Origin: Asanoa ishikariensis
Lineage (GTDB): Bacteria > Actinomycetota > Actinomycetes > Mycobacteriales > Micromonosporaceae
Assembly (NCBI RefSeq): GCF_900107455.1
Contig: NZ_FNQB01000001.1
Location: forward strand, 620,001 to 684,000
Direction of reading: 5' to 3'
DNA: 64,000 nucleotides
Position numbers and translations under genes: made by a program. Shown here piece by piece: positions 3,696 to 38,153 of this stretch. The notes below the pieces were generated by a model. The model was not told the origin of the DNA and ran no database searches. It saw only the letters and a program-made list of their open reading frames with translations. The stretch's first letter is position 1. Every line of letters begins with the position of its first letter.

Positions 3696-3754
3696 ATATC
3701 TTCGGGCCCGGTTGGGTACTGACGCTCCATCCACAAACCTGGAGGAGTGCCGGC

Positions 3755-3997
3755 ATGTCCTACCCGACCAGTCCCGCGCGGCCGCGTAGCTCGGCCGCCC
3801 GCATCTGCACCATCATCGCGTTCGTCTTCGCCGTGCTCGCGGTGCTCATCTCGCCGCTGATCTTCGGCCTGCTCGGCCTGATCCTGGGCGTCGTCGGTGC
3901 GGTGCTCGGCGACAAGCCGCTCGGCTGGTACGCGGCCGGGGCCAGCGTCGCCGGCGCGGTGCTCGGCATCATCATCAGCTCCGCGCTGATGAACTGA
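3755..3997 (+). CDS. Small membrane protein (DUF4190-like)
   Basis: An 80-aa protein with a short polar N-terminus and two hydrophobic helices, about 18-45 and 53-77, separated by GDKPLGW. It looks like the small two-helix actinobacterial family annotated DUF4190 or similar. The ATG follows GGAGGAG. It stands alone after the dehydratase and is followed by a strong bidirectional terminator. Function unknown. Confidence 0.75.
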   Translation: MSYPTSPARPRSSAARICTIIAFVFAVLAVLISPLIFGLLGLILGVVGAVLGDKPLGWYAAGASVAGAVLGIIISSALMN

Positions 3998-4003
3998 CGA
4001 AGG

Positions 4004-4045
4004 AAGGGTCCCTTGTTATCGCTTTCCGCATAACAAGGGACCCTT
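4004..4045. terminator. Strong bidirectional terminator hairpin
   Basis: A perfect inverted repeat with 15-bp arms, AAGGGTCCCTTGTTA at 4004-4018 and its complement at 4031-4045, around a 12-nt loop. It sits between two convergent genes (ends at 3997 and 4063). I recall similar AAGGGNCCCTT hairpins as a recurrent intergenic element in Micromonosporaceae genomes. The other convergent junctions in the window lack such a structure. Confidence 0.85.
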
Positions 4046-4062
4046 ATTAACGCCCCGCGAAG

Positions 4063-22313: not shown

Positions 22314-23887
22314 TGACCACCACGGAAACTCGGCCCGCACCGGCCACCGAACCGCCGCCGCGGCCGGGCTGGGGTAACTGGCTGGTCGGCCTGGCCCGCC
22401 GCCTCTGGCGGCAACTGACCAGCATGCGTACCGCGCTGGTGTTGCTGTTCCTGCTCGCCGTCGCGTCGATTCCCGGCTCGGTGCTGCCGCAGAGCAACGT
22501 CGCCGTCGAGCAGGTACAGAACTTCTACCGCGAGCACCCGACGCTGGCGCCCTGGCTCGCGAAGGTCGACGGGTTCAACGTCTTCGGTTCGCCGTGGTTC
22601 GCCGCGATCTACCTGCTGCTGTTCACCTCGCTGATCGGCTGCGTGGTGCCGCGCCTGCGCGACCACTACCGGGCGATCAGGTCGCGGCCACCGAAGGCGC
22701 CGGCCCGGCTGGACCGGTTGCCGCACCACGCCGAGGTTCCCGACTTTGACGGCGACCTGTCGGATGTCGCGGCGGCGCTGCGCAAGCGGCGCTGGCGGGT
22801 CGTCGTCAGCGACGACAGCGTGTCGGCCGAGAAGGGCTACCTCAAGGAGACCGGCAACCTGGTCTTCCACTGCTCGCTGCTGGCCGTGCTGGTCGCGGTC
22901 GCGCTCGGCTCCTGGTACGGCTGGCACGGCAACCGGATCCTGGTCACCGGCAAGGACTCCGGCTTCTGCAACAGCCTCCAGCAGTACGACGAGTCGAAGC
23001 TCGGCCCGCGCGTCGACGAGGGCAAGCTGCCACCGTTCTGCGTGACGCTCGACGACTTCGAGGCGTCGTTCCAGAGCAGCGGGCAACCCAAGCACTTCCG
23101 TGCGTCGGTGACCGTCGAGGGCGACGGGCCGACCCACAGCTCGACCTTCTCCGTCAACGACCCGCTGCGGCTCGACGGCGCCTCCCTCTACCTGTTGGGC
23201 CACGGCTACGCGCCGATCCTGCGCTACACCGACCGGTTCGGGAAGACGCAGACCAAGGAGGGTCCGTTCCTGTCCATCGACGGGATGCAGACCAGCACCG
23301 GCGCGATCTCGTTCCCGGACGCCAACGTCGACCCGTCGACCGGCAAGCGCGACGCGAACCTGCAGATGGGTTTCGACGGCATCTACATGCCGACGGCGCC
23401 TGCCCAAGCGCCGTTTCTGCGCTCGGATTTCCCGGCGGAGAACAACCCGGGGCTGCTGCTCACGGCCTATCGCGGCAACCTGGGCCTGGACGCCGGCATC
23501 CCTAGCTCGGTCTACCGGCTCGACCAGGCCCAGATCAACACGGGCCGACTCAAGCCGGTCGGCGAGGGCAAGCTGCTCAAGCCCGGCGAGAGCTGGACGC
23601 TGGACGACGGCTCGACGGTGCAGTTCGTGGGCACCAAGAAATACATCGTGCTGTCGGTGCGGCACGACCCGGGCCAGGGCATCGCGCTCGTCGCCGCGGT
23701 GCTCGCGCTCGGCGGCCTGATGGGCTCCCTGTTCGGGAAACGTCGCCGGGTCTTCTTCCGCCTGACTTCCCCGTCTCCGACATCGAGTAGTAGATTGCTC
23801 GAGGCCGGTGGCCTGCCGCGCACCGACTACCCCGGCTTCGCCGAGGAGTTCGCTTCGACCGTCGCCGCCGTGAGAGAGAAGACCTGA
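22313..23887 (+). CDS. resB: Cytochrome c biogenesis protein ResB
   Basis: A 524-aa protein of the ResB/Ccs1 family. Three helices near the N-terminus (about 37-58, 93-112 and 180-200), a large extracytoplasmic domain (about 220-450) and a final helix before the C-terminal tail match the family. With ResC it forms the system II synthetase that exports haem and attaches it to cytochrome c. ATG 22313 shares its A with the ccdA stop. Confidence 0.93.
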   Translation: MTTTETRPAPATEPPPRPGWGNWLVGLARRLWRQLTSMRTALVLLFLLAVASIPGSVLPQSNVAVEQVQNFYREHPTLAPWLAKVDGFNVFGSPWFAAIYLLLFTSLIGCVVPRLRDHYRAIRSRPPKAPARLDRLPHHAEVPDFDGDLSDVAAALRKRRWRVVVSDDSVSAEKGYLKETGNLVFHCSLLAVLVAVALGSWYGWHGNRILVTGKDSGFCNSLQQYDESKLGPRVDEGKLPPFCVTLDDFEASFQSSGQPKHFRASVTVEGDGPTHSSTFSVNDPLRLDGASLYLLGHGYAPILRYTDRFGKTQTKEGPFLSIDGMQTSTGAISFPDANVDPSTGKRDANLQMGFDGIYMPTAPAQAPFLRSDFPAENNPGLLLTAYRGNLGLDAGIPSSVYRLDQAQINTGRLKPVGEGKLLKPGESWTLDDGSTVQFVGTKKYIVLSVRHDPGQGIALVAAVLALGGLMGSLFGKRRRVFFRLTSPSPTSSSRLLEAGGLPRTDYPGFAEEFASTVAAVREKT

Positions 23888-24837
23888 TGGCCGCCTTGTC
23901 GGACACGCTGCTCGTAGTGGCCATGCTCAGCTACCTCGTGGCGATGATCTGCTACGCCGCCGTGTACGCGTTCGGCGACCGCGGCGCGGTGGCCAAGGTC
24001 GCGACGCGCGAGCTCGTCGGCGCCGGTGGCCCGCCGGTGGTCGAAGTCGTCTCAGAAGAGCGGAAGCCTTCACCCGGCCGGCCGTCCTGGGCCAGCCGCT
24101 TGGCCGGGGCCGTGCTGGTGCTCGCGGCGACCGCTCAGATCGGATCGCTGATCTTCCGCGGCGTCGCCGGCCACCGGCTGCCGTGGGGCAACATGTACGA
24201 GTACGTCCTCGCGGCCACCTCGGTCGCCGCGGTGGCCTGGATCATCGTGATGTTCCAGCGCCCGGCCCTGCGCCACCTGGGCCTGTACGTCGCGCTGACC
24301 CAGGTGGTCCTGCTCGGTGTCGCCGGCCTGCTCCTCTACGTGCCGGTCGGCCCGCTGGTGCCGGCCCTCGACTCGTACTGGCTGGCCATCCACGTCACAG
24401 CCGTGGCCATCTCGTCGGGCGTGTTCCTGATCGGCTTCGTGCCGGCGGGCCTGTTCCTCATCCGCTCCGGCTACGACAAGGGCCGGCACAGCTTCCCGTT
24501 CAGCCTCGGCGAGCGCCTTCCGGCCGCCGGCGTGCTGGAGCGGCTCTCGTTCCGGCTGCACGCGTTCGCGTTCCCGATCTGGACCTTCGGCGCACTGATC
24601 GCGGGCCCGATCTGGGCGGAGTCGGCCTGGGGCCGGTACTGGGGTTGGGACCCCAAGGAGGTGTGGGCGTTCATCTCCTGGGTCGTCTACGCCGGCTACC
24701 TGCACGCCCGGGCCACGCCGAGCGTCAAGCAGACGACGGCGACCTGGATCGCGGTGCTCGGCTTCCTGACGATGCTGATGAACCTGTTCGGCGTCAACAT
24801 CTTCTTCACAGGCCTCCACTCGTACGGCGGCCTCTGA
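23887..24837 (+). CDS. resC: Cytochrome c biogenesis protein ResC (CcsB)
   Basis: A 316-aa polytopic membrane protein with about eight helices. It has the tryptophan-rich haem-binding motif WGRYWGWDPKEVWAFISW and conserved external histidines (for example WLAIHVTAV and TGLHSYG). It is the haem-handling half of the ResBC complex. It is the last gene of the operon and shares one base with resB. A weak hairpin follows at 24848-24872. Confidence 0.94.
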   Translation: MAALSDTLLVVAMLSYLVAMICYAAVYAFGDRGAVAKVATRELVGAGGPPVVEVVSEERKPSPGRPSWASRLAGAVLVLAATAQIGSLIFRGVAGHRLPWGNMYEYVLAATSVAAVAWIIVMFQRPALRHLGLYVALTQVVLLGVAGLLLYVPVGPLVPALDSYWLAIHVTAVAISSGVFLIGFVPAGLFLIRSGYDKGRHSFPFSLGERLPAAGVLERLSFRLHAFAFPIWTFGALIAGPIWAESAWGRYWGWDPKEVWAFISWVVYAGYLHARATPSVKQTTATWIAVLGFLTMLMNLFGVNIFFTGLHSYGGL

Positions 24838-24847
24838 CATTCAACCG

Positions 24848-24872
24848 ATCGGCTGTTGGGTTGGGCCGATCC
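24848..24872 (+). terminator. Possible weak terminator after resC
   Basis: GATCGGC (24848-24854) and GCCGATC (24866-24872) form a 7-bp stem with an 11-nt loop, 11 nt past the resC stop and ahead of the secreted-protein genes. There is no T-run, so termination would be partial at best. Confidence 0.4.
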
Positions 24873-24914
24873 GCTCGCTAACCTCCTGATGATCATTTCT
24901 GACGGGGGAGTGAG

Positions 24915-27485
24915 ATGCGCGTTCTTCGCGGCCTGGCGCTGTTGTGCGTCGGTGCGTTGGCGACGGCCGGATTCACGGCGATCGCCGGGAACGCCTCTGC
25001 GGCGGCCTCGACCATCTTCGTCTCGAAGGTGTGCGGCAGCGCGCCGGACGGGTCCGAGGCCAACCCCTACTGCACGATCTCGAAGGCCGCGGAGGTCGCG
25101 GTAGCCGGGCAGACGATCGCGGTGGACAAGGGCGACTACACCGAGTCGGTGGTCGTGCGGTCCGGGCAGCCGGGCAAGCCCATCAGGTACGTCGGATACC
25201 GCGGCGCCGGCGGCCAGGTGCGGGTCGTAAGCGCTGCCACCGGGAACGCCTTCGTCGTCTCCGGAGTACACGACGTCGTCATCGACGGGTTCTATCTGGT
25301 CGGCTCCGGCCTTACCCCGGCGGTGGTCGAGAGCTCGAGCGACATCACGATCTCGAACGGCTGGATTCTTTCGCCGACGGTGATCGGCATCGACATCAAG
25401 GGCGACTCGCATCGGGTGACGGTCAGCGGCATGTCGGCGTTGGGCATGCGCGCACCGCTCGTCGCGGTCGGCGCGGGCGCCACCGACACCGTGCTGGCGC
25501 AGAACAGTGTGCGATCGACGCGGGCACCGGGATACCCGCCGCACCCGGCCGTCGCCGTCACGGATGCCCCGAACACGACCGTCACCAACAACACGATCGT
25601 GACCGACTGCCTTGCCGGCATCGAGGTCACGGGCGCTTCCGGCGGGTTCGCCCTCTACAACTCGATCGTGCGTACCACCGCGGTCGGCACCCCCGGCCGG
25701 TGCGGGGCCTCGTCCGGACCTGATCCGGCGAGCGTGACACCCGTGACGGTCACGGCGTCGGCGACCACCGACGCGCACGTCGACTACAACGTGATCGACC
25801 CCGGCCATGGCGGGTCGCTGTACTCGTGGGCCGGCACGACCTACCCGAACCCTGGAGCGTTGGCCGCCGCGACCGGGCAGGGCGCGCATGACATCGGCGC
25901 CGACCCGAAGCTCGCCAACGTCTCGGACCCGCAGGCGGCGGGCTGGACGCTGACCGCCGAGTCACCGGCCATCGACTCGGCTCTGGCCGACGCGCCGGGG
26001 ACGCAAGCCACGGACCTGCGGGGCAACGCGCACGCCGACAAGCCCGATACGGCGAACGCCGGAGCGGGCTTTGTCGACCGCGGGGCCGTCGAGTTCGTGC
26101 CAGCGCCCTCCCTGCGCTCGACGATGGTCCGGGCGCCGGGCGGCAGCGCGTTCGAGACGGTTGCCACCGCGACCGCGACCTCTCCCTGGACGACCGACGG
26201 ACCCGTCGGCACGTTCACGCTTCACAAGAGCAACGAAAAGCGGATCGTCAACCGCACCGGCATCGCGCGGTTCTCGTTCGAAGAAGCCGGCCACGCGTGC
26301 GCCGTCGTCCAGTTCAGCCTCGACGGGTTCCGCGGCTCAGCGGAACCGCAGTACGACTCCGCCTGCATGATGCTCGGCGCCGCCTACACGGCCGTCACCC
26401 CGCGCCGCGTGCTCGACACCCGATCGGCGATCGGCGTTCCGAGCACGACGCCGGTGTATCGCAACGGCGAGGTCCAGGTTCCGCTGCCGGCTCCGGCCGC
26501 CACCGCCAGCGCGGTCGTCCTCAACGTCACGGCGACCAAGCCGACGACCGCCGGGGCGTTGAAGGTCTATCGGGAGCCCGGGTACGAGCCGAACGGCTAC
26601 AGCGTCCAGTTCGCCGCCAACCAGACGATCGCGAACCTCGTGACCGTACAGGTCCGCGACGGCAAGGCCTCGATCTCCAACGAGAGCATGGGCACGGTTC
26701 ACGTCGTCGCGGACCTGGTCGGCTACTACGCCGACGGCGACTCGGGGCTGCGGACCGCGACGCCCGCCCGGGTGCTCGACACCCGCTCGGCGATCGGCGT
26801 GCCCGGCACCGCCCCGATGGGCGCCCAGGGGCGCGTCACCGTCGACCTGTCGTCACGGGTGCCGGCGGGCACGACCGCGGTGGTGCTCAACCTGACGGTC
26901 ACGAAGCCGACGCAGAGCGGCCACGTGACGCTGTTCCCGCCAGGGGCTGCGGTGCCCACGGCGTCGAACGTCAACTTCGTGGCCGGTCAGACCGTCAACA
27001 ACATGGTGATCGCGCCGGTGGTCGGCGGCAGGATCGCGTTCGCGCACGGTGGTTCGGGCACGGTGCACGTGATCGCCGACCTCTCCGGCTGGTACGCGCC
27101 GGGTGTTGGCGACATGCTCCTGCCGACCTACCCAATCCATCTCGCGCGGCCTGGCCACATCGACGGTGTGACCGTCGGACCGGGTCAGACGCTGCGGGTT
27201 TTCGTCAACGCCAACGAATGCGGGTCGACGCCGTGCGAGCCGCGCACAGCCGTGGTCGCGAACGTGACCGCCATCCTGCCGCAGTCCGGCGGCTACCTGT
27301 CCGTCTACCCGTACGGCCAGGCGAGGCCGGTCATGTCGGCGGTCAACTTCACCGCGCACCAGATCGTCGCGAGCCAGGTCACCGTGGGCCTGCACGAGGA
27401 CTCGTTCATGGTCTACAACAGCAGCTCCGGCAACGTCGAGGTCTCCATCGACCAGACCGGCCTCTACCTCGGATCGGTGAGCTAG
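24915..27485 (+). CDS. Secreted beta-helix/VLDTR-repeat protein, copy 1
   Basis: An 856-aa exported protein. A signal peptide (about 1-29) is followed by a predicted right-handed beta-helix (about 32-400) with PGKPI, TNNTIVTDCLAGIEVTG and LRGNAHADKPD landmarks. A beta-rich linker domain runs to about 490. Three repeats of about 120 aa begin near 497, 617 and 735; the first two carry RVLDTRSAIG and TVHVxADLxGxY, but in the third the VLDTR motif has become IHLARPG. Cysteine pairs suggest disulfides. No LPxTG, transmembrane anchor or known catalytic residues are visible. GGGGGAG precedes the ATG. It is the first of three adjacent paralogues; adhesin or carbohydrate binding is a guess. Confidence 0.85.
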   Translation: MRVLRGLALLCVGALATAGFTAIAGNASAAASTIFVSKVCGSAPDGSEANPYCTISKAAEVAVAGQTIAVDKGDYTESVVVRSGQPGKPIRYVGYRGAGGQVRVVSAATGNAFVVSGVHDVVIDGFYLVGSGLTPAVVESSSDITISNGWILSPTVIGIDIKGDSHRVTVSGMSALGMRAPLVAVGAGATDTVLAQNSVRSTRAPGYPPHPAVAVTDAPNTTVTNNTIVTDCLAGIEVTGASGGFALYNSIVRTTAVGTPGRCGASSGPDPASVTPVTVTASATTDAHVDYNVIDPGHGGSLYSWAGTTYPNPGALAAATGQGAHDIGADPKLANVSDPQAAGWTLTAESPAIDSALADAPGTQATDLRGNAHADKPDTANAGAGFVDRGAVEFVPAPSLRSTMVRAPGGSAFETVATATATSPWTTDGPVGTFTLHKSNEKRIVNRTGIARFSFEEAGHACAVVQFSLDGFRGSAEPQYDSACMMLGAAYTAVTPRRVLDTRSAIGVPSTTPVYRNGEVQVPLPAPAATASAVVLNVTATKPTTAGALKVYREPGYEPNGYSVQFAANQTIANLVTVQVRDGKASISNESMGTVHVVADLVGYYADGDSGLRTATPARVLDTRSAIGVPGTAPMGAQGRVTVDLSSRVPAGTTAVVLNLTVTKPTQSGHVTLFPPGAAVPTASNVNFVAGQTVNNMVIAPVVGGRIAFAHGGSGTVHVIADLSGWYAPGVGDMLLPTYPIHLARPGHIDGVTVGPGQTLRVFVNANECGSTPCEPRTAVVANVTAILPQSGGYLSVYPYGQARPVMSAVNFTAHQIVASQVTVGLHEDSFMVYNSSSGNVEVSIDQTGLYLGSVS

Positions 27486-27489
27486 CAAC

Positions 27490-30051
27490 ATGAAGCGCAG
27501 CTTCCTGGCATTCGTAACCGCCGGCGTCCTGGTGACGGCCGGCCTGGCCGTCACCGGCGGGACCGCCGCCGCGGCGGCGGACCCGCCGTCCACCATCCAC
27601 GTGGCCACGATGTCCTGCGGCGGTGCGCAGGACGGCAGTGAGGCCAAGCCGTACTGCACGATCGCGCAAGCGATCGCGTTCGCCGTGCCCGGCCAGACCA
27701 TCGCCGTCCGCGAAGGCACCTATTTCGGTACCGAGGTGCCGCGCTCCGGCGAGCCCGGCAAGCCGATCACGTTGGCCGCACGGCCGAGCAGCATGGGCAC
27801 CGCCGTCACGATCATCGGTGAGCCGGCCTTCCACTTCGCGGGTGTGCACGATGTCGTGGTCGACGGTTTCCTGACCAACACCGGCGGACCTGGCGTCGTG
27901 GTCGAGAACTCCAGCGACGTCATGTTCACCAACGGCCGGATCACCGCCTCGTCGGGGCCGGGTGTCGAGATCAAGGGCGACTCGCGCCGGGTCACCGTCA
28001 GCTCCACACTCACGAACGTCAGCCGCGGGCCGGCCTTCGCGGTCGGCGGGGGCGCCACCGACACTCTGTTGGCTGCCAACAGCGTCAGGGGTATCCGGTA
28101 CACCGGGGTCGCGCCCTACCCGGCCGTCGCCGTCGCCGACGCGCCGCGGACCACGGTCATCAACAACACGATCGTGACGGACTGCCTCGCCGGCGTTGAC
28201 GTCAGTGGTGAATCGGCGGGGTTCGCCCTGGTCAACTCCATCGTGCGGACCACGACGGTCAGCACGCCGGGCCGGTGCTCGGGCTCACCCGCGCCCGATC
28301 CCGCGAACGTGGTGCCGGTGACGGTCGCCGGCGCGGCGACCTCCGACGGAACCATCGACTACAACGTCATCGATCCCGGACACGGCGGGGCGCTCTACTC
28401 CTGGGCCGGCGCGACGTTCGCCGACCCCAGCGCGCTCCACGCCGCCGCCGGGCAGGCGGCGCACGACCTCAAGACGGACCCGAAGCTGGCCGGCGTCGCC
28501 GACACCTCGTTCGGCCTGCGCCCCGGCTCGCCGGCCATCGACTCCGCTCTGGCCACCGCCCCGCGGCTCCCGGCGACCGACCTGCGCGGCAACGCGCACG
28601 CCGACAACCCCGACGCGGCCAACGGCGGCGGTGGCTACGTCGACCGTGGCGCGACGGAGGTCGTTCCGACTCCCACCGTCTCCTCGAAAATCGTCCACGC
28701 GGCCGGCGGCGGCGCGCTCGATGCGGTCGTCACGACCACGCGGACCTACCCCTGGCCGACCGATGGCCCGATCGGAACGTTCAGTTTTCGTGGCGACGGC
28801 CCGGCCACGGTGATCAACCGGACCGGGAGTGCGCGGCTGACCTTCGGCAACGCGGGCGCGGCCTGTGCCATGGTCATCCTCAGCCTCTACGGGTTCCCCA
28901 CCGCCGCCTCGGCGTACTACGACTCGCCCTGCGTGATGCTCGGCGGCGGCTATGCCGCTGTCACCCCGCAGCGGGTGCTCGACACGCGGTCGGCGATCGG
29001 CCGTCCCGGCACCACACCGCTGTCGGGCGGCCAACAGGTCGACTTCGCCATCCCTGGTGCGGCGGCGACCGCCAGCGCGGTCGTTCTCAACGTCACCGTG
29101 ACCAACCCGCAGAGCCCAGGCTCTTTGCGGGTCATGCGGTCCGACCTGTTTGAACCCGTCGGTGCCAACCTGCACTTCGTCGCGAACGAGACGATCGCCA
29201 ACCTGGTGACGGTCCCGGTCCGCAACGGCAAGGTGTCGATCTACAACGACAGTGCTGGCACCTCGCACGTGCTCGCTGACCTGGTCGGCTACTACGCCAA
29301 CACGCCGAACGGCCTGACCGCCGCCACGCCGGCGCGCGTGCTCGACACCCGGTCCGCGGTCGGCGTGCCGGGTACGAGCCCGGTGGGCCCGCAGGGCCGG
29401 GTCGTTGTCGACGTGTCGTCCCGCGTGCCGGCGGGCACCACCGCGGTGGTGCTGAACCTGACCGTCACCAAGCCGACCCAGAGCGGGCACATCACCCTGT
29501 TCCCGAACGGTTCCGCGGTGCCGACGGCGTCGAACCTCAACTTCGTCGCGGGTCAGACGGTGAACAACATGGCGATCGCTCCGGTGGTCGGTGGGAAGAT
29601 CGCTCTCGCACACGGTGGTTCGGGCACGGTGCACGTGATCGCCGACCTGGCGGGTTGGTTCGCGCCCGGCGCCGGCGGGACGTTCCTGCCTACGTACCGG
29701 AGGCATCTCTTCGAGCCCGGCCAGAACGCGGGTGGGCTGATCGGGCCGGGACAGTCGGCGCGGGTCTTCGTCAACAAGAGCGACTGCGGATCCACTTCTT
29801 GCGAGCCGCGTACGGCCGTCGTCGCGAACCTGACCGTCGACAACGCCGGGGCGGCGGGCTACCTGTCGATCTACCCGTACGGCCAGCCCAAGCCGGTCGT
29901 GTCCGTTCTCAACTTCAACAAGGGCCAGACGGTCTCCACCCAGGCCACTGTCGGCGTCGCTGAGGACTCCTTCATGATCTTCAACAGCAGCTCGACCACG
30001 GTCGAGGTGTTCGTCGACCAGTTCGGCTTCTACTTCGGATCGGTGGCCTAG
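27490..30051 (+). CDS. Secreted beta-helix/VLDTR-repeat protein, copy 2
   Basis: An 853-aa paralogue collinear with copy 1: signal peptide (about 1-32), beta-helix with INNTIVTDCLAGVDVSG and LRGNAHADNPD, a linker domain, then three repeats. The middle repeat (VLDTRSAVG...TKPTQSGHITLFP) is the most similar segment between copies. The last repeat again lacks VLDTR (RRHLFEPG) but keeps the CGSTSCEPRTAVVANLTV cysteine pair found in copy 1. It starts 4 nt after the stop of copy 1, at a TAG-CAAC-ATG junction with no good ribosome binding site, so translation probably reinitiates from copy 1. Confidence 0.85.
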   Translation: MKRSFLAFVTAGVLVTAGLAVTGGTAAAAADPPSTIHVATMSCGGAQDGSEAKPYCTIAQAIAFAVPGQTIAVREGTYFGTEVPRSGEPGKPITLAARPSSMGTAVTIIGEPAFHFAGVHDVVVDGFLTNTGGPGVVVENSSDVMFTNGRITASSGPGVEIKGDSRRVTVSSTLTNVSRGPAFAVGGGATDTLLAANSVRGIRYTGVAPYPAVAVADAPRTTVINNTIVTDCLAGVDVSGESAGFALVNSIVRTTTVSTPGRCSGSPAPDPANVVPVTVAGAATSDGTIDYNVIDPGHGGALYSWAGATFADPSALHAAAGQAAHDLKTDPKLAGVADTSFGLRPGSPAIDSALATAPRLPATDLRGNAHADNPDAANGGGGYVDRGATEVVPTPTVSSKIVHAAGGGALDAVVTTTRTYPWPTDGPIGTFSFRGDGPATVINRTGSARLTFGNAGAACAMVILSLYGFPTAASAYYDSPCVMLGGGYAAVTPQRVLDTRSAIGRPGTTPLSGGQQVDFAIPGAAATASAVVLNVTVTNPQSPGSLRVMRSDLFEPVGANLHFVANETIANLVTVPVRNGKVSIYNDSAGTSHVLADLVGYYANTPNGLTAATPARVLDTRSAVGVPGTSPVGPQGRVVVDVSSRVPAGTTAVVLNLTVTKPTQSGHITLFPNGSAVPTASNLNFVAGQTVNNMAIAPVVGGKIALAHGGSGTVHVIADLAGWFAPGAGGTFLPTYRRHLFEPGQNAGGLIGPGQSARVFVNKSDCGSTSCEPRTAVVANLTVDNAGAAGYLSIYPYGQPKPVVSVLNFNKGQTVSTQATVGVAEDSFMIFNSSSTTVEVFVDQFGFYFGSVA

Positions 30052-30055
30052 CACC

Positions 30056-32614
30056 ATGTCCCGTCTGCGCCGCGGGCTGGCGCCGCTGATCGCCGCCGTG
30101 CTCCTGACGACGGTCGCGCTCCCGTTGGCCGGTGCCGACGCCGCCGAACCTGCGGACACCATCCACGTCACGCAGCGCTGCGACACCGTCATGGACGGAA
30201 GCCCGGAGCGTCCCTTCTGCTCGATCACCGAAGCCGTCAGGACGGCCCAGCCGGGTCAGACCGTCGAGGTGACGGCGGGCGAGTGGGGCGATGTCGTGGT
30301 CGCCACGTCCGGTTTACTGGGCCAGCCGATCACGATCAAGGGATTCCGGGGCTACGGCCAGCGCACAAGAGTCCGAAGTGTCCACCTCTCGGCCGTTCAA
30401 CACGTGGTTGTCGACGGGTTCGACATCGTCGTTGACGGGTCCAAGTCGGCCGTGCTGATCGAGGACTCCAGCGACGTCACCGTCACCAACGGGTGGGCCA
30501 ACACCGGGTCGGCTCCCACCGTCGACATCCGGGGTGACTCGCACCGGGTCACCGTGAGCCGCATGGTGGCCAGGGGATATCGGGCGCAGGTCTTCGCGGT
30601 GGGTGCCGGCGTCACCGACACCCTTCTGAGCCGCAACAGCGTCATGCTGGACCGCCTGTTCACCGGCGCACCGGCGGCGATCACCATCGCCGACGCGCCG
30701 CGGACGACCATCACCAACAACACGATCGTGACCGACTGTCTGGTCGGAGTGGCGGTCACCGGCGACTCGGCCGGGTTCGGCCTCTACAACTCGATCGTTA
30801 GGACCAACCTGCCGGACCGCCCGGGAGCCTGCACCCCGCCCGAGGCGCCGCTGCCGGCGAGCGCGATTCCGCTCACGGTCGAGGGCGTGGCCGCCACAGA
30901 CAGCCAGCTCGACTACAACCTGCTCGACCCGGTGCACGGCGGGCCGCTCTACTCCTGGGCCGGCACGACCTATCCGAATCCGGCCGCCTTCGCCGCCGCC
31001 ACCGGGCAGGGCACGCACGACATCGCCGCCGACCCGAAGCTCGTCACCGTCCAATCGACGAACGTGGGCTGGGGCCTGGGCTCCGACTCTCCGGCGATCG
31101 ACTCCGCGCTCGCGACCGCGCCAGGTCTGTACGGCCCCGACCTGCGTGGTAACCCCGCGGCCGACAAGCCGGACGTTCCCAACAGCGGCGGAGCGTTCCT
31201 CGACCGCGGCTCAGTGGAACTGCTGCCCGAGCCGAAGGTCGCGCCAACAATCCGTTGGGTACTCGACTACGGGAACCCTGGAAGCCTGGAAGCTATCGTC
31301 TATGTGAACGCCGAGTACCCGTGGCTGACCAGCGCCGTTCGGGGCGGCGGGACGGCTTCCATCCAGATGATCAACACGCCCTCGGCGGAAACCGTCCTCA
31401 CTGACAGCGGTTACGCCGCCTTCACCTACCCTCGGGCCGGCGTCGCGTGCGCCTCCGTCGTGTTCAGCACGGATGGGTTCCGCTCCCGCCCGCCGCTGCA
31501 CCAGTCCTCGCCGTGCACCGTGCTCGGTTCCTCGTTCACCCCTTCGACCCCGCAGCGGGTGCTCGACACGCGGTCCGGCGGCGGCGCCCCGATGAGACCC
31601 AACAGCGACCTGGTGCTGCCGCTGCCGGCGCCGTTCTCGACAGCGGACGCGGTCGTCCTCAACGTCACCGTCACCCAGCCCACCGCCAACGGCTACCTGA
31701 CTGTTTCGGCGCCCGGAAACAGGCCCGAGTCGTCGAACATCAACTTCGTTGCCAAGCAGACGATCGCCAACCTGGTGACCGTGCCGGTGAGCGAGGGCAA
31801 GGTGCGCTTCTCCAGCAGCGGTTCGGGCACCGTGCACGTGCTCGCGGACGTCGCCGGTTACTACGGCAACGCCGGGAAGCGCATGAAGGCGATGGCCCCG
31901 GCCCGGCTGCTCGACACCCGCAACGCGATCGGAGTGCCGGGCACGACCCCGATCGGCCCACAGGGCCGGGTCACCATAGACGCGGGGCTTTGGCTGCCCG
32001 CCGGCACGACCGCGGTCGCCCTGAACCTGACGGTGACGAAGCCGACCCAGAGCGGGCACATCACCGTGTTCCCGCCGGGCGGTGCGGTGCCGACGGCGTC
32101 GAACCTCAACTTCGTCGCCGGTGCGACCGTGAACAACATGGTGATCGCCCCGGTGGTCGACGGGAAGATCGCGTTGGCGAACGGTGGTTCGGGCACCGTA
32201 CACGTGGTGGCTGACATGACCGCCGCGTTCGCGTCCGCTGGCACGAACACCTATCTGCCGACCTTCCCGACGCGGATCCTCGACACGCGCGCGAGCGGCA
32301 AACCGGTCGGCCCCGGCCAGGCGGTGCGAGTTTCGGTGGACAAGCGGGCGTGCTCCGGCCACCCGTGCGGTGCCGGCGCCATCGTGGCGAATGTGACCGT
32401 GACCGGCACGAAGTCCGCTGGCTACTTGACCGTCTACCCGTTCGAGCAGAACCGCCCGACGGCGTCGGCGATCAACTTCACCGCTGGCCAGACCGTGGCC
32501 AACCTGGTCACCGTCGGCCTGGGCGACAACTCGTTCCTCGTCTTCAACAGCAGCGCGGCCACCGTCGATGTGGTCGTGGACCAGGCGGGCTTCTACCTGT
32601 CACCGCCAATCTGA
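30056..32614 (+). CDS. Secreted beta-helix/VLDTR-repeat protein, copy 3
   Basis: An 852-aa paralogue and the most diverged of the three. Signal peptide about 1-30, beta-helix with ITNNTIVTDCLVGVAVTG and LRGNPAADKPD, linker, then three repeats that all keep the motif (RVLDTRSGGG, RLLDTRNAIG, RILDTRASG). It therefore probably shows the ancestral form of the third repeat. It follows copy 2 by 4 nt at a TAG-CACC-ATG junction like the one before it. No anchor, sortase signal or enzyme motif is visible. The VLDTR repeat is, from memory, common in secreted actinobacterial proteins and has no settled function. Confidence 0.85.
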   Translation: MSRLRRGLAPLIAAVLLTTVALPLAGADAAEPADTIHVTQRCDTVMDGSPERPFCSITEAVRTAQPGQTVEVTAGEWGDVVVATSGLLGQPITIKGFRGYGQRTRVRSVHLSAVQHVVVDGFDIVVDGSKSAVLIEDSSDVTVTNGWANTGSAPTVDIRGDSHRVTVSRMVARGYRAQVFAVGAGVTDTLLSRNSVMLDRLFTGAPAAITIADAPRTTITNNTIVTDCLVGVAVTGDSAGFGLYNSIVRTNLPDRPGACTPPEAPLPASAIPLTVEGVAATDSQLDYNLLDPVHGGPLYSWAGTTYPNPAAFAAATGQGTHDIAADPKLVTVQSTNVGWGLGSDSPAIDSALATAPGLYGPDLRGNPAADKPDVPNSGGAFLDRGSVELLPEPKVAPTIRWVLDYGNPGSLEAIVYVNAEYPWLTSAVRGGGTASIQMINTPSAETVLTDSGYAAFTYPRAGVACASVVFSTDGFRSRPPLHQSSPCTVLGSSFTPSTPQRVLDTRSGGGAPMRPNSDLVLPLPAPFSTADAVVLNVTVTQPTANGYLTVSAPGNRPESSNINFVAKQTIANLVTVPVSEGKVRFSSSGSGTVHVLADVAGYYGNAGKRMKAMAPARLLDTRNAIGVPGTTPIGPQGRVTIDAGLWLPAGTTAVALNLTVTKPTQSGHITVFPPGGAVPTASNLNFVAGATVNNMVIAPVVDGKIALANGGSGTVHVVADMTAAFASAGTNTYLPTFPTRILDTRASGKPVGPGQAVRVSVDKRACSGHPCGAGAIVANVTVTGTKSAGYLTVYPFEQNRPTASAINFTAGQTVANLVTVGLGDNSFLVFNSSAATVDVVVDQAGFYLSPPI

Positions 32615-32636: not shown

Positions 32637-33062
32637 ATGCGACACACGTGGCGGGTATCGCCGGCCGGCCGGGTGATCGGCATCGTGTTCATGGCCTTCG
32701 GGCTGTGGGTCATGGTCCGCGCGGCGCTGGCCGGCGCGCGGGACGGTTATGACCTGGGCATCTGGTACGGGTTCGGCTTCGGCCTGGCCGCCGTGCTCGT
32801 GCCGCTGCTGTTCGCGCTGCGGCCGGCCGTGATCCTGACCGGCACCGACGTCGAGGTGCGCAACCCGCTGCGCACCCGACGCGTGCCGCTCGCCGAGATC
32901 ACCGACGCCAAGACCGGCTACGGCGGCCTGCGCATCGAGACCCGCGACGGCCGCGCGATCACCGCCTGGGCGGTGCAGAAGTCCAACGTGGCCAGTTGGT
33001 CCGGTAGGCACACCCGGGCCGACGAGGTCGCCGACGCCATCCGCGCACAGGCAGTTTCCTGA
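32637..33062 (+). CDS. PH-domain membrane protein
   Basis: A 141-aa protein with two N-terminal helices (about 10-32 and 43-62) and a C-terminal bacterial PH-like domain (about 65-140: VILTGTDVEVRNPLRTRRVPLAEI, ITAWAVQKSN). This is the layout of the actinobacterial PF10756-type family. ATG 32637 has TATCCT (32625-32630) six nt upstream, so it has its own leaderless promoter despite lying only 22 bp after the secreted-protein genes. Function unknown. Confidence 0.8.
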   Translation: MRHTWRVSPAGRVIGIVFMAFGLWVMVRAALAGARDGYDLGIWYGFGFGLAAVLVPLLFALRPAVILTGTDVEVRNPLRTRRVPLAEITDAKTGYGGLRIETRDGRAITAWAVQKSNVASWSGRHTRADEVADAIRAQAVS

Positions 33063-33121: not shown

Positions 33122-33649
33122 ATGGACGCTGATCTCGAGGCGGAGTTCAGCGAGTTCGTCGGCGCCCGGTCGCACGCGCTGTTCCGCACCGCGCTGGCGC
33201 TGACCGGACATCGCCAGCAGGCCGAGGACCTACTCCAGACGGTGCTCATCAAGGGCGCTCGGCACTGGCCGCGGATCCGCTCCGGTGCGCCGGAGGCATA
33301 CCTGCGCACCGCGCTCTATCGCCAGCAGACCAGTTGGTGGCGGGGGCTACGCCGGCACCGCGAGGTCAGCACCGATGAAGTGCCGGAGACGGCCGTCGGC
33401 GTCGACCCGACCGCGACGGTCGACCTGCACCTAGCCCTGCGACAGGCGCTGCGCCGGCTCGCGCCCAAGCACCGGGCGGTGCTGGCACTGCGCTACTTCG
33501 AAGACCGCCCCGACGTGGAGATCGCGGAGATCCTCGGGTGCACCGAGTCGACCGTGCGCAGCCAGGCCGCTCGCGCCCTCGCCCGGCTGCGCGAGCTCGC
33601 GCCTGAGCTCGCCATGGCCGACGCCACGAAGCAGGAGGTGCGGCGATGA
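33122..33649 (+). CDS. ECF sigma factor, SigE-like family
   Basis: A 175-aa group IV sigma factor. Region 2 is at about 8-75 (FRTALALTGHRQQAEDLLQT, AYLRTALYRQQTSWWR). Region 4 is at about 105-165 (LRYFEDRPDVEIAEILGCTESTVRSQ, the promoter-binding helix-turn-helix). It fits the actinobacterial group annotated as SigE family. Its stop overlaps the next gene, which encodes a membrane protein with a cytoplasmic N-terminus, by 4 bp (ATGA). That arrangement is typical of a sigma factor with its anti-sigma or sensor partner. Confidence 0.9.
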   Translation: MDADLEAEFSEFVGARSHALFRTALALTGHRQQAEDLLQTVLIKGARHWPRIRSGAPEAYLRTALYRQQTSWWRGLRRHREVSTDEVPETAVGVDPTATVDLHLALRQALRRLAPKHRAVLALRYFEDRPDVEIAEILGCTESTVRSQAARALARLRELAPELAMADATKQEVRR

Positions 33650-34776
33650 ACGACCGACTCACGGGTGCGTTGCGGGAGACGTTCGAGCGGCTCGCCGACG
33701 ACGGCCCTCCGCCGCAAGGGCTGGCGCGGTCGGCGCTGGCCGGGGCCCGGCGCCGCAGGCATGTCCGGTTCGGTGCCGCGGCCGGGCTGGCGCTGTGCGT
33801 CGCGCTGGTCGGCGGCATGGCTGTCGTCGGTGACCGCGGCGCCCAGCCCGCCGGAGGTCCCGGCGGCTCGGTCGTCGTCGCCTACAGCGGCATCCGGGAC
33901 TGGGCCGTCGAGGATGGCAGTCGGGCCTACAACTACTCGTTGTTGCTCGACGCGGCCACCGGCACCTACCGCCGCCTTCCGTTCCCGTCCGTGGTCCCGT
34001 CGCCCGACGGGGAGCGGGTGCTGATCAGCACTGGCGACAACAGCGGAGACCACCCGAGCCGGCTCGGCATCATGGATCGCGCCACCAACGTGGTCCGCTG
34101 GATCGAGGCCGGGCAGGTGCCTCGGTTCCCCGGCGCCCAGGGCGACGGCGTGTGGTCGCCGGACGGCGGGCGGATTCTGTTTCGGTTCTCGCCTCAGGCC
34201 GCCCCGGCGGGCGTGGTGGCGGTCGACGCGGAGACCCTGCGCGCCGAGTTCGTGGCGGTCCCCGGTGTCTCCACCGGTGACGTAGGGCTGGGGTGGACGC
34301 CGGACGGCACCGGGTTCGCGTTGACGCCGTCGAGCGCGAACGAGGCGGGCACCAACGATGTCGCGGCGGAGGTGCTGTTCATGGGCCTCGACGGCCACGA
34401 GCGAGGCACTCTCAAGGTGCCGGATGATGCGCTGTGGGGCACACCGGCGTTCTCGCCCGACGGGCGGCGGCTGGCGCTGTGGGGGCCGGCCTTCAGAGAC
34501 TCGCCCCTCTCGGTCGCGATCGTCGGTCCGAACACCGGCGCCGTCGAGGCCCGGTTCGCCGTTCCCGATGCCGGCAGCTTCCAGGGTTGGTCCGACGACG
34601 ATCACCTGGTCTTCCGCGCCTCGGACGCCCGCACCGAGGCCGAGCAGGTCCTGATCGTCGACCTGTCGGGCGCGGTGACCAAGCGGCTGACCCCGCCCGA
34701 CGGCGTCGCCGCGGACCGCGTCTACGTCGGCTCCGCGGGCGGCCTGCCGGACTCCGCAGCCGACCTGACCTTCTGA
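33646..34776 (+). CDS. Membrane-anchored propeller-like protein, possible anti-sigma partner
   Basis: A 376-aa protein with a cytoplasmic N-terminus (about 1-40, RETFERLADDGPPP), one transmembrane helix (about 41-61) and a large outer domain. The outer domain has repeated SPDGxRxL/WTPDGTGF motifs of TolB/WD40-type beta-propellers. The short N-terminus could bind the sigma factor encoded 4 bp upstream, but it lacks a zinc-binding HxxxCxxC motif, so anti-sigma function is inferred only from coupling and topology. Confidence 0.7.
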   Translation: MNDRLTGALRETFERLADDGPPPQGLARSALAGARRRRHVRFGAAAGLALCVALVGGMAVVGDRGAQPAGGPGGSVVVAYSGIRDWAVEDGSRAYNYSLLLDAATGTYRRLPFPSVVPSPDGERVLISTGDNSGDHPSRLGIMDRATNVVRWIEAGQVPRFPGAQGDGVWSPDGGRILFRFSPQAAPAGVVAVDAETLRAEFVAVPGVSTGDVGLGWTPDGTGFALTPSSANEAGTNDVAAEVLFMGLDGHERGTLKVPDDALWGTPAFSPDGRRLALWGPAFRDSPLSVAIVGPNTGAVEARFAVPDAGSFQGWSDDDHLVFRASDARTEAEQVLIVDLSGAVTKRLTPPDGVAADRVYVGSAGGLPDSAADLTF

Positions 34777-34825: not shown

Positions 34826-36283
34826 ATGGCCCGCGCCTTTCCGTATCCGGACCTCAAGGACTTCATCGCCGCCCTCGAGAGCGCCGGTGAGCTGCGGCGC
34901 GTCGGTGTGCCGGTCGACCCGACGCTGGAGATCAGCGAGGTGGTGACCCGCACCGTCCGGGCCGGCGGGCCGGCCCTGCTGTTCGAACGGCCGACCCGGG
35001 GCGAGATGCCGGTCGCGATCAACCTGTTCGGCACCGAGCGCCGCACCGCTATGGCGCTGGGCGTCGAGTCGCTCGACGAGGTCGGCGACCGGATCGGCGC
35101 GCTGGTCAAGCCCGAGCTCCCGGTGGGCTGGTCGGGGATCCGCGACGGGCTCGGCAAGGTCCTTCAGCTCAAGTCCGTGCCCCCGAAGAAGGTCAAGACG
35201 GCGCCCTGCCAGCAGGTCGTCTACCGGGGCAAGGACGTCGACCTCAACCGGCTGCCGGGGCTCCAGGTCTGGCCGGGCGACGGCGGGATCTTCCACAACT
35301 TCGGGCTGACCCACACCAAGCACCCGGAGACCGGCAAGCGCAACCTGGGCCTCTACCGCCTCCAGCAGCACTCGCACAACACGCTCGGCATGCACTGGCA
35401 GATCCACAAGGACTCGACCGCGCACCACGCGGTCGCCGAGCGGCGCGGCGAGCGGCTGCCGGTGGCCATCGCGATCGGCGCGGACCCGGTGGTCAGCTAC
35501 TCCGCCAGCGCTCCGCTGCCGGGCGACATCGACGAGTACCTCTTCGCGGGCTTCCTGCGCGGCGAGCGGGTCGAGATGGTCGACTGCCTGACCGTGCCGC
35601 TGCAGGTGCCGGCGCAGGCGCAGATCATCATCGAGGGCTACATCGAGCCCGGCGAGCGGCTTCCCGAGGGTCCGTTCGGCGACCACACCGGCTTCTACAC
35701 GCCGGTCGAGCCGTTCCCGGTGCTGCACGTCGAGTGCATCACCACGCAGCGCGACCCGGTCTACCAGTCGATCATCACGTCCAAGCCGCCGCAGGAGGAC
35801 CACGGGCTCGGCAAGGCCACCGAGCGGATCTTCCTGCCGCTGCTCAAGCTGCTGATCCCGGACATCGTGGACTACGACCTGCCGTCCGCCGGGGTGTTCC
35901 ACAACTGCGTGATCGTCTCGATCAACAAGCGCTACCCGAAGCACGCGCAGAAGGTGATGAGCGCGGTCTGGGGCGCCCACCTGCTCTCGCTGGCCAAGCT
36001 GATCGTGGTCGTCGACGACGACTGCGACGTGCACGACTACGCCGAGGTGGCGTTCCGCGCGTTCGGCAACGTCGACTACGCGCACGACCTGGTGCTCACC
36101 CAGGGGCCGGTCGACCACCTCGACCACGCGTCGTACCAGCAGTTCTGGGGTGGCAAGGCGGGCGTCGACGCGACCCGCAAGCTGCCGACCGAGGGTTACA
36201 CCCGCGGTTGGCCGGACGAGATGACCATGTTGCCGGAGATCACGGCGCTGGTCGACAAGCGGTGGAAGGAGTACGGCATCTGA
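34826..36283 (+). CDS. UbiD-family decarboxylase of the menaquinone pathway
   Basis: A 485-aa UbiD-family enzyme that uses prenylated FMN to decarboxylate an aromatic acid. Family segments include LPGLQVWPGDGGIFHNFG, NLGLYRLQ, and PEGPFGDHTGFYTP near the active site. It is followed with a 1-bp overlap by a UbiA-type prenyltransferase, and UbiX, which makes prenylated FMN, lies 2 kb further on. From memory this set matches the late futalosine-pathway genes of Streptomyces (the SCO4490-4494 region), so the substrate is probably a 1,4-dihydroxy-6-naphthoate derivative. Confidence 0.9.
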   Translation: MARAFPYPDLKDFIAALESAGELRRVGVPVDPTLEISEVVTRTVRAGGPALLFERPTRGEMPVAINLFGTERRTAMALGVESLDEVGDRIGALVKPELPVGWSGIRDGLGKVLQLKSVPPKKVKTAPCQQVVYRGKDVDLNRLPGLQVWPGDGGIFHNFGLTHTKHPETGKRNLGLYRLQQHSHNTLGMHWQIHKDSTAHHAVAERRGERLPVAIAIGADPVVSYSASAPLPGDIDEYLFAGFLRGERVEMVDCLTVPLQVPAQAQIIIEGYIEPGERLPEGPFGDHTGFYTPVEPFPVLHVECITTQRDPVYQSIITSKPPQEDHGLGKATERIFLPLLKLLIPDIVDYDLPSAGVFHNCVIVSINKRYPKHAQKVMSAVWGAHLLSLAKLIVVVDDDCDVHDYAEVAFRAFGNVDYAHDLVLTQGPVDHLDHASYQQFWGGKAGVDATRKLPTEGYTRGWPDEMTMLPEITALVDKRWKEYGI

Positions 36284-37182
36284 TGGTCGCCGTGGCGGCA
36301 CCGGCCCCGAACAGGGTCCGGGCCTTCATGCGGCTGGTGATGATCGAGCACTCGATCTTCGCTCTGCCGTTCGCCTACGTCGCCGCCCTGGCCGCCATGC
36401 GGCTCGACGGCGGCCGCGTGCAATGGGACACCCTGGTCCTGATCACCATCGCGATGGTCGGGGCCCGGACGGTCGCGATGGCCGCGAACCGGATCATCGA
36501 CCGGCGGATCGACGCGCAGAACCCGCGCACCGCCAAGCGCGAGCTGATCACCGGCGAGGTGTCGCTGCGTACCGCCTGGATCGGCCTGTTGCTGTCCCTG
36601 GTCGTCTTCGAGGGCGCGGCGGCCGCACTCAACCCGCTCTGCCTGGTCCTCTCGCCGATCGCGCTGTTCCTGCTGGTCATCTACTCGTATGCGAAACGCT
36701 TCACCAACTACCCGCAGTTCTTCCTGGCCGCGGCGCAGGCGGTGGCCCCGGTCGGCGCCTGGATCGGCGTGACCGGGCAGTGGTCGTGGCCGGCGTTCGT
36801 GCTGGGCGTCGCGGTCGGCACCTGGATCGGCGGCTTCGACTGCATCTACGCGGTGCAAGACCTGGAGGCCGACCGTCGCATCGGCATCGGCTCGGTCCCG
36901 GTGAAGCACGGCGTACGCGGCGCCCTGATCATCTCGGCGGTGACCCACGTGGTCACGGTCGCGTTCTACATCTGGTTCGGCCTGCTGGCGGACCTGGGCT
37001 GGCTCTGGGGCGCCGGGGTCGCGATCACCACGATCGTCCTGGTCTACGAGCACGCCATCGTGAAGCCCACGGACCTGTCCCGAGTCAACAGGGCTTTCTT
37101 CACCGCGAACGGCGTGATCGGCATCGTCCTGTTCGCCTTCGCCCTCCTGGACCTGGTCGCCCTCCAGGGCCTCGGCGCTTAG
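36283..37182 (+). CDS. mqnP: UbiA-family prenyltransferase of menaquinone synthesis
   Basis: A 299-aa integral membrane prenyltransferase with about eight helices. The two aspartate-rich motifs are NRIIDRRID (near residue 68) and DLEADR (near residue 195); these bind Mg2+ and the polyprenyl diphosphate. Coupled to the UbiD-family gene, it probably attaches the isoprenoid tail to the naphthoate ring in futalosine-type menaquinone synthesis. Its stop overlaps the convergent terpene synthase stop by 4 bp (TTAG). Confidence 0.88.
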   Translation: MVAVAAPAPNRVRAFMRLVMIEHSIFALPFAYVAALAAMRLDGGRVQWDTLVLITIAMVGARTVAMAANRIIDRRIDAQNPRTAKRELITGEVSLRTAWIGLLLSLVVFEGAAAALNPLCLVLSPIALFLLVIYSYAKRFTNYPQFFLAAAQAVAPVGAWIGVTGQWSWPAFVLGVAVGTWIGGFDCIYAVQDLEADRRIGIGSVPVKHGVRGALIISAVTHVVTVAFYIWFGLLADLGWLWGAGVAITTIVLVYEHAIVKPTDLSRVNRAFFTANGVIGIVLFAFALLDLVALQGLGA

Positions 37183-38153
37183 GCCCGACTGCCCACCCAC
37201 TCCTCGACCACGGTGGGCATCGGGTAGCGGGGGGACTCCAGCGACCAGTCGATCGTGCCGCGGACCGAGTCGGCTACGCCCTCGACGTAGCGGCGGACCG
37301 CGGCGTCGATGCGGGTGCCGAAGGCCGGCACTGCCGCGCGTAGCTCGACGAACCGGGTCATCCGCTCCTGCCAGCGGCCGATCACCTCACGGGTGGCGGC
37401 GTCCCGGGCCAGGCCCCGCTCCCGGGCCGTGGCCAGCACCAGGTTGTGTCCCGCCGAAACGTCCTCGTCGCGTTCCAGCGACAGCAGATCGTTGAACCAG
37501 GAGAGCAGGTCGTTGCCGGCCGCGCTGATCTCGCGTAGGACCGGGTGGTGGTAGACCGCCTCCGGGATCCGCATCCGTCCCGCGCCGGCGAACTCGATCA
37601 GGGCGTACGACACGTAGGCCGCCGAGGTGGCCCGGCGGAGCTGGATGTATTCCACGATGCCGGGGCGGCGGCCGACCCACTTGTTGCTGGCCTCGACCAG
37701 GATGCCGTCGAGGTGGTGGCGCAGCGCGTCGTTGATGCGGTCGACCGACATCTCGGAGAGGTCGCCGGTGATCGCCCGCCACGAGTCGAGCAGCATCGCC
37801 CGCATCGGTTCGCTCAGCCCGGGTGCCGGCTGCCGGCCGTCGCTGTCGATGGTGGCGAAGACCCCGTCGACGGTGGCGCGGACCTGGTGCAGCGGCGGTG
37901 CGGCGTCGCCGTCGACGGTGTCGTCGAGTAGGAAGAACCAGGTGAACAGCGCCGTCACCAGGCGCAGGTCGGTCTCGTCGGCGTCCGGGTAAAGGCGGCC
38001 GGCGTAGCGGGCGAAGCCGCTGCGGCGCAGCCGCTCGGCGGTCTCGGCCGCGATGCCCCGTTCGGTCATCCAACCGGTCAACCAGTTCTGCGCGGCGTCG
38101 GCGTGCGGAGAGATCCGCGGCGGGATGGGGCAGAACAGACCGGGCGTCACCAT
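37179..38153 (-). CDS. Class I terpene synthase
   Basis: A 324-aa alpha-domain terpene cyclase. The metal-binding motifs are DDTVD at about 77-81 (FFLLDDTVDGD) and NDLLSLERDE (NSE triad with Asp at the last position), and the C-terminal WSLESPRYPMP is the RY-type ending. It should ionise a prenyl diphosphate, probably C15, and cyclise it; the product cannot be predicted. ATG 38153 follows GGGAGG; a longer frame to 38201 is less likely. It lies on the opposite strand between the prenyltransferase and ubiX genes, and no P450 or other tailoring gene adjoins it. Confidence 0.9.
   Translation of the reverse strand: MVTPGLFCPIPPRISPHADAAQNWLTGWMTERGIAAETAERLRRSGFARYAGRLYPDADETDLRLVTALFTWFFLLDDTVDGDAAPPLHQVRATVDGVFATIDSDGRQPAPGLSEPMRAMLLDSWRAITGDLSEMSVDRINDALRHHLDGILVEASNKWVGRRPGIVEYIQLRRATSAAYVSYALIEFAGAGRMRIPEAVYHHPVLREISAAGNDLLSWFNDLLSLERDEDVSAGHNLVLATARERGLARDAATREVIGRWQERMTRFVELRAAVPAFGTRIDAAVRRYVEGVADSVRGTIDWSLESPRYPMPTVVEEWVGSRA

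Follow-up and report, generated by a model that had tools for sequence, protein, structure and literature searches.

The window analysed here, a 64,000-nucleotide (nt) stretch of the Asanoa ishikariensis genome (contig NZ_FNQB01000001.1, positions 620,001 to 684,000), contains a tandem array of three genes. Their products are paralogues, each composed of a signal peptide, a right-handed beta-helix, an Ig-like domain and three beta-sandwich VLDTR units. The sequence data support reading the locus as one array of an expandable paralogue family and not as a fixed three-protein machine. Tentatively, and with somewhat less than even confidence, we interpret the products as secreted, surface-retained proteins that carry glycan-binding, adhesin-like heads on a triplet attachment module and have been diversified by birth and death.

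Under this explanation, the array would be one of an expandable family of Sec-secreted paralogues lodged in a slot of variable copy number. The triplet would pack as one threefold unit by which each protein stays attached to the cell envelope or to some other glycan surface, and polysaccharides would be bound, or weakly processed, by the diverging beta-helix heads; fold and domain partners point to these roles. Expressed together from one promoter, the genes of the array would equip the cell with a repertoire of adhesin-like heads that bind glycans outside the cell, diversified through duplication, divergence and loss. Surface or adhesin roles for these proteins are plausible. Tandem families of secreted or surface paralogues are a known kind, and the VLDTR module, a widespread actinobacterial module, mostly of three units and linked with fixed-slot arrays of diverging secreted heads, deserves description. 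An attachment role for the triplet, if real, would account for the surface retention of many actinomycete secreted proteins that lack sorting signals and would make the triplet a useful display tag. The arrays would offer a simple system in which to study how bacteria maintain and adjust sets of glycan-binding proteins.

The array and its variable slot

The array proteins and their repeat units are as follows (aa, amino acids):
24915..27485, + strand: protein 1, 856 aa; signal peptide, beta-helix at residues 31-395, Ig-like domain at 399-487
Protein 1, residues 489-606, 610-729 and 733-852: VLDTR-type units, the third without the motif
27490..30051, + strand: protein 2, 853 aa; architecture as protein 1 by alignment, third unit without the motif
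30056..32614, + strand: protein 3, 852 aa; architecture as protein 1 by alignment, motifs VLDTR, LLDTR and ILDTR

The three collinear open reading frames (ORFs) and the near-identical 4-nt junctions reported by the initial annotation are present exactly so, with the gaps (caac and cacc) lying inside longer near-identical junctions. The proteins are 50-62% identical pairwise (protein 1 versus 2, 62%; 1 versus 3, 52%), and each begins with a Sec-type signal peptide, identified by eye. The absence of a wall anchor is likewise borne out on reading the three sequences, which have no LPXTG-type C-terminus and end just past the third beta-sandwich unit. The description of three VLDTR repeats per protein stands for the units, since each protein, by a unit profile, contains three successive units of about 120 aa, but not for the motif: three recognisable motifs occur in protein 3 only, and proteins 1 and 2 have two each, their third unit having lost it.

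The expression signals before the first gene are:
24849..24858, + strand: promoter box of the family, TCGGCCANTG, a weak match of 7/10 (by eye)
24879..24884, + strand: -10-like hexamer TAACCT of the TAnnnT type, a consensus match only
24903..24911, + strand: ribosome-binding-site-like run acgggggag before protein 1

Gene 1 is preceded by a promoter-like region and genes 2 and 3 by just 4 nt each, which would fit one operon. The box is common to the array-leading genes of both Asanoa slots (this one and a second, slot 2), where it stands 20-21 nt before a TAnnnT hexamer that is followed by an ACGGGG-like run. The window spacing of 20 nt agrees with that of the other array-leading genes, and ACGGGG runs similar to the window's are found before many family copies. 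Automatic picking recovered the box with at least 8 of its 10 positions matching in 10 of the 14 genes given; in the other four, the window gene among them, it chose a wrong 7/10 site, and inspection by eye located a 6-7/10 box at the expected place. A scan of 15 loci for a 9/10 box plus hexamer returned seven sites, every one before a family gene.

The family occurs in all six Asanoa genomes of our set, which includes A. siamensis, A. iriomotensis and A. hainanensis as well as the window's genome, with 8, 1, 5, 1, 11 and 3 full-length or nearly full-length copies. In the same order, the slot beside the ECF-sigma, PD40 and UbiD genes holds 3, 1, 2, 1, 10 and 1 copies. The eight copies of the window's genome comprise the window array of three, an array of four on the same contig at a distance of about 112 kb, and one gene on another contig. 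Within the taxonomic family, 11 of 200 genomes (six of them Asanoa) match at E≤1e-60, representing 4 of 44 genera. The same architecture, in several cases in tandem, appears in Micromonospora, Actinoplanes subtropicus, Kitasatospora and Streptacidiphilus among the best 80 of 527 matches. None of the literature titles listed on VLDTR, Asanoa genomes, tandem arrays or beta-helices, Micromonospora secretomes or duplications, kumamolisin, or the beta-helix in Actinoplanes sporangia concerns this family.

These counts bear on the proposal that the three proteins work as a set. Near-equal length, which had been taken as its sign, is a property of the family: 26 of the 29 genus copies (those with a placeable start) are 834-862 aa long, single or arrayed, so the equal length is due to common descent. 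A fixed hetero-trimer or defined three-component layer is not supported, the slot holding 1-10 copies across the genus. Relatives with single copies, which had been named beforehand, together with a lack of co-expression, as a refutation, do exist and speak against the strict three-protein reading: two of the six genomes have one copy in total. The family is present in all six genomes, and the set of three is local to the window genome. A looser set remains supported by the promoter-like region, the 4-nt junctions, the pairing of window genes 2 and 3, in order, with A. hainanensis genes 1 and 2, and the collinear Micromonospora subfamilies described below. The operon-like layout, the junctions and this pairing would also suit a three-protein hetero-oligomer specific to the window operon; we nevertheless hold that reading to be extremely improbable, given 1, 2, 1, 10 and 1 slot copies in the five other genomes and the fact that each chain already holds three repeated units.

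A structural surface coat, S-layer or spore-sheath-like, assembled from interchangeable paralogues would accommodate the signal peptides, the beta-rich model, the conserved cysteines, the multiple copies and the single promoter-like region. It is nonetheless very improbable: two genomes have one copy only, no more than 11 of 200 genomes of the taxonomic family match at E≤1e-60, and the three window proteins show no S-layer homology domain among Pfam matches up to E 1. The S_layer_C family (PF05124) matches one of 13 triplet proteins scanned (E 1.4e-6), and that one is not a window protein.

Arrays in slot 2 follow a LacI-type regulator in three genomes (loci L021, L025 and L031) and are bounded on the other side by an MFS transporter in L021 and L025 and, in L031, by a glycosidase-like gene that has F5/8 type C domains. 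The third copy of A. hainanensis slot 2 (L025:13980-16205) is an open frame of 741 aa without about the first 108-131 family residues, a possible truncated gene. The copy on another contig of the window's genome (L022:8250-10814) looks like a relocated slot gene; its closest relative is the sole slot copy of genome G001, with a synonymous divergence (dS) of 0.34 and a similar upstream region. A slot common to Asanoa and Micromonospora was considered and rejected, as the MFS genes beside Asanoa slot 2 and beside the Micromonospora arrays are 22% identical over 225 residues.

The beta-helix head

The beta-helix predicted for each protein is upheld in part. Some signal is found in all three and a model is available for protein 1, but protein 3 falls below the PF13229 (right-handed beta-helix) cutoff of 25.9 bits, scoring 14.9 against 30.8 and 30.0 for proteins 1 and 2, and barely passes that of DUF1565 (PF07602; cutoff 20.3), where proteins 1 and 3 score 20.9 and 20.8 and protein 2 falls short at 19.2. 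Choice-of-anchor Q (NF041518, cutoff 25 bits) is not reached by proteins 1 and 2 (20.9 and 22.4), and protein 3 is not listed; the sub-cutoff match covers residues 341-394 of proteins 1 and 2. Fold was assessed on protein 1 only, whose predicted structure is beta-rich with a mean pLDDT of 92.3. In a comparison covering residues 29-396, the modelled helix resembles polysaccharide lyases, hydrolases and phage tailspikes in fold.

This likeness brings forward enzymatic activity as the main rival explanation. The proteins would then be lyases or hydrolases that act on polysaccharides outside the cell, with the array serving as an enzyme set for multiple substrates and the VLDTR triplet as its substrate-binding appendage. 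The fold neighbours are mostly polysaccharide-active enzymes, residues 37-105 match the profile of xylosidase 3vst (E 9.1e-7), and the triplet is often fused to hydrolases. Residues D290, Y303, W305, H325 and D326 are conserved, as are R167, R220 and R369 within the 18 Asanoa sequences of the head alignment, and the slot-2 arrays have as neighbours a LacI regulator and either an MFS transporter or a glycosidase-like gene. Still, we consider an enzyme set unlikely. No Pfam or NCBIfam lyase or hydrolase family scores above cutoff in the window proteins, no position from 60 to 380 keeps Lys, or keeps Arg, in ≥80% of 64 relatives, and the conserved residues sit close to the sub-cutoff choice_anch_Q match, in the C-terminal part of the helix, and may be structural. 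The polysaccharide lyases PL9, PL6 and PL31 are marked by a conserved catalytic base and metal-binding residues; comparison with them showed a similar fold, and the head has the conserved residues named above.

Set beside known systems, the head is only 14-15% identical to beta-helix polysaccharide-active enzymes (PL9 Pel9A, 1ru4; alginate lyase, 6kfn; glycoside hydrolase BT_1002, 5mqp), to which the window proteins add the Ig-like domain and the VLDTR triplet, and from which they differ in having no enzyme family above cutoff and no assignable catalytic site. They are like the secreted beta-helix proteins of the choice-of-anchor Q and DUF1565 types, DUF1565 being just above cutoff in proteins 1 and 3, but the C-terminus is a VLDTR triplet and no known anchor, and the choice_anch_Q score is below its cutoff. 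They share the same three-unit module, often terminal, with actinobacterial secreted hydrolases (pro-kumamolisin proteases, Rv2525c-like and Amidase_2 proteins), which differ in carrying enzymatic N-terminal domains.

Two other readings were examined. A polymorphic toxin would have a variable C-terminal toxin domain, and none was seen, as the C-terminal unit aligns throughout the family alignments; the 4-nt gaps are too small for an adjacent immunity gene, although no search was aimed at immunity genes. A phage origin was rejected, protein 1 having no match in the phage collection at E 1e-3.

The VLDTR triplet

The VLDTR unit is an actinobacterial module that is also found on proteases, an amidase and glycosidase-like proteins. 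We found no name for it in Pfam/NCBIfam, sequence-to-structure or literature searches: solved structures gave no sequence match to the triplet (best E 0.3), and no Pfam or NCBIfam family is consistent across 13 module members, the window triplets included. NCBIfam TcfB matches 6 of the 13 (best E 7.6e-10) and CgeC 4 (best 0.0025), and the remaining families, like S_layer_C, match single members; all these matches, given with no cutoffs, were taken as probably compositional. Among 16 proteins scanned for fusions, five carry pro-kumamolisin, two an Rv2525c-like domain, one Amidase_2 with FG-GAP and one Laminin_G_3; two more have sub-cutoff domain matches only and five have no match. On plasmids, protein 1 finds a match in 14 of 72,556 records; among the 10 matches listed, 9 cover the triplet (from about residues 483-489 to 846-851). 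Across the phylum, the triplet is matched at E≤1e-30 in 14 of 296 genomes and 12 of 199 genera.

Loci retrieved with the three-unit query have exactly three units in 63 of 66 ORFs and six in one, a count biased by the query. A single-unit model was therefore also used to search the 14 triplet-matching genomes, taking 55 stretches from 13 of them among the best-scoring places listed; one listed place at a contig end was left out, two places were added from the triplet search, and three edge ORFs, each with three units, were dropped. Among the resulting 65 complete ORFs, 53 have three consecutive units, seven have one, four have two and one has four, with some bias remaining because the genomes were pre-chosen by triplet match. 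These per-ORF counts replace a count of multiples of three in unit totals, which was dropped as uninformative. In 40 of the 65 ORFs, no more than 10 aa separate the module from the C-terminus. In 18 it ends more than 60 aa short of the C-terminus, and in 11 of these 18 it starts within 90 aa of the frame start.

In 129 distinct three-unit proteins, units within a protein share a median identity of 0.51, against between-protein means of 0.39-0.43 computed after pairs of ≥65% had been dropped. For 187 of 387 units the best distant match occupies the same position, where 129 would be expected by chance, and mean identities show no position effect. These values suggest that part of the triplets were inherited whole and that units were renewed in the rest, three staying the usual number. 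Renewal with the number kept at three gives a hint of a closed threefold structure. Taken further, the triplet could be a single-chain pseudo-trimer that serves across Actinobacteria as a threefold attachment domain for a shared envelope ligand, with the Asanoa and Micromonospora arrays displaying strain-specific, expandable heads (up to 10 per array) for partner, surface or kin discrimination. We regard this as decidedly improbable, and lowered our confidence in it slightly because of the 187 same-position matches.

The window's genome encodes two further VLDTR-triplet proteins, a 1617-aa ORF with Laminin_G_3 (L038:485-5338) and a 441-aa protein with no Pfam family (L039:4453-5778). Two 4.8 Mb genomes of the same phylum (G401 and G479, family f43) have at least 119 and at least 150 VLDTR units with 150 candidates scored in each, which suggests that dozens of their proteins carry the module. 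At L134, overlapping frames (2921-5500 and 4602-5327) with one and two units were counted as two non-triplet ORFs, and look as if one triplet gene had been split by a frame change.

Divergence, selection and neighbouring genes

The array is flanked by ordinary genes, upstream a thioredoxin-like gene, ResB and CcsB, and downstream PH-domain, ECF sigma, PD40 and UbiD genes:
23887..24837, + strand: CcsB cytochrome c assembly protein, upstream flank, found in 5/6 genomes
32637..33062, + strand: bacterial PH-domain protein (PF10756), matched in 3/5 other genomes
33122..33649, + strand: ECF-type sigma factor, downstream flank of the slot, conserved in 6/6 genomes
33646..34776, + strand: PD40-containing protein, adjoining the array with sigma and UbiD in 6/6 genomes; anti-sigma-like by position only
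34826..36283, + strand: UbiD decarboxylase, flank conserved in 6/6 genomes (95-99%)

CcsB was not found within the 4.4 kb examined upstream of the ten-copy A. siamensis array. The PH-domain gene, whose likely start lies 22 nt downstream of protein 3, is possibly co-transcribed with the array.

Between the window genome and A. hainanensis, dS is 0.10-0.30 for CcmG, ResB, CcsB, the PH gene and UbiD, 0.46 for the sigma factor, 0.57 for PD40 and 0.63-0.65 for the closest array genes, so the outer flanks are younger, or less exchanged, than the array and its near downstream neighbours. The A. siamensis array looks, from its sequences, to be mostly its own expansion. In Micromonospora, arrays lie between an MFS gene and a metallophosphoesterase at loci reaching far enough, and comprise subfamilies that are 70-89% identical within and 47-56% between. 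Their orders are A-B-C-D, A-C-D, X-B-C-D, A-B-C-E-F, A-B-E-?-F and ?-?-D (? denoting genes outside the groups), with X-B at another place, and they look like a maintained repertoire with gain and loss, unlike recent duplicates.

These orders bear on whether the family is simply neutral, duplicating locally without an array-level function. Slot copy numbers of 1-10 and a ratio of nonsynonymous to synonymous divergence (dN/dS) that exceeds the values for CcsB, the sigma factor and UbiD would be expected of such a family, but the 29 genus copies contain no internal stop (one lacks the N-terminus), purifying selection persists, and the Micromonospora subfamilies keep their order across species. 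We therefore consider neutrality rather improbable. Overall dN/dS is 0.30-0.64 across 14 gene pairs of the family, compared with 0.04-0.28 for CcsB, the sigma factor and UbiD and 0.23-0.61 for ResB, CcmG and the PH gene; diversifying selection was accordingly dropped as a candidate, since no pair of the 14 exceeds 1. Tandem, copy-variable surface-protein families exist in bacteria, and the window family is like them in its fixed slot, variable paralogue number and diverging heads, and unlike them in having no overall dN/dS above 1.

Several observations weigh against secreted glycan-binding heads on an attachment triplet, the explanation that we favour. Values of dN/dS in the family, which overlap those of ResB, CcmG and the PH gene, do not point to diversifying selection. 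The PD40 protein next to the array has diverged as quickly as its proteins (51-65% identical over all 15 genome pairs, against 82-87% for the sigma factor and 95-99% for UbiD), so rapid divergence is not unique to the array and its standing as a special feature is tempered. The window's own promoter box is a weak match, other array-leading genes having stronger forms, and a stricter gapped box pattern has no match in the window's own genome; that pattern required GCTA, which the own-genome boxes lack, and its zero result says little. The conserved D290, Y303, W305, H325 and D326 could be an active site, 12 of the 65 ORFs do not have three units, and the occurrence of the triplet on enzymes could be explained equally by substrate binding and by wall retention.

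Recombination was assessed with a home-made homoplasy test of 200 shuffles, in which the shuffles as low or lower, at all sites and at third positions respectively, numbered 0 and 58 for slot 1, 0 and 0 for slot 2, 2 and 109 for the A. siamensis array, and 0 and 56 for a mixed set of eight. We take recombination as apparently clear for slot 2 only, and rate heterogeneity may contribute. Gene conversion in the second VLDTR unit of proteins 1 and 2 is not supported, its dS of 0.61 lying within the 0.44-0.75 of the other parts with dN lowest. When either protein is paired with protein 3, no other part of the gene has a dS as low as that of this unit (0.46 and 0.49 versus 0.59-1.11), and some gene conversion may have occurred there.

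Further downstream, an ORF at 36423-37340 (+ strand) has a dN/dS of 2.6-5.2 against five relatives and no Pfam match; the true gene is probably in another frame or strand, and the ORF was left out as a flank.
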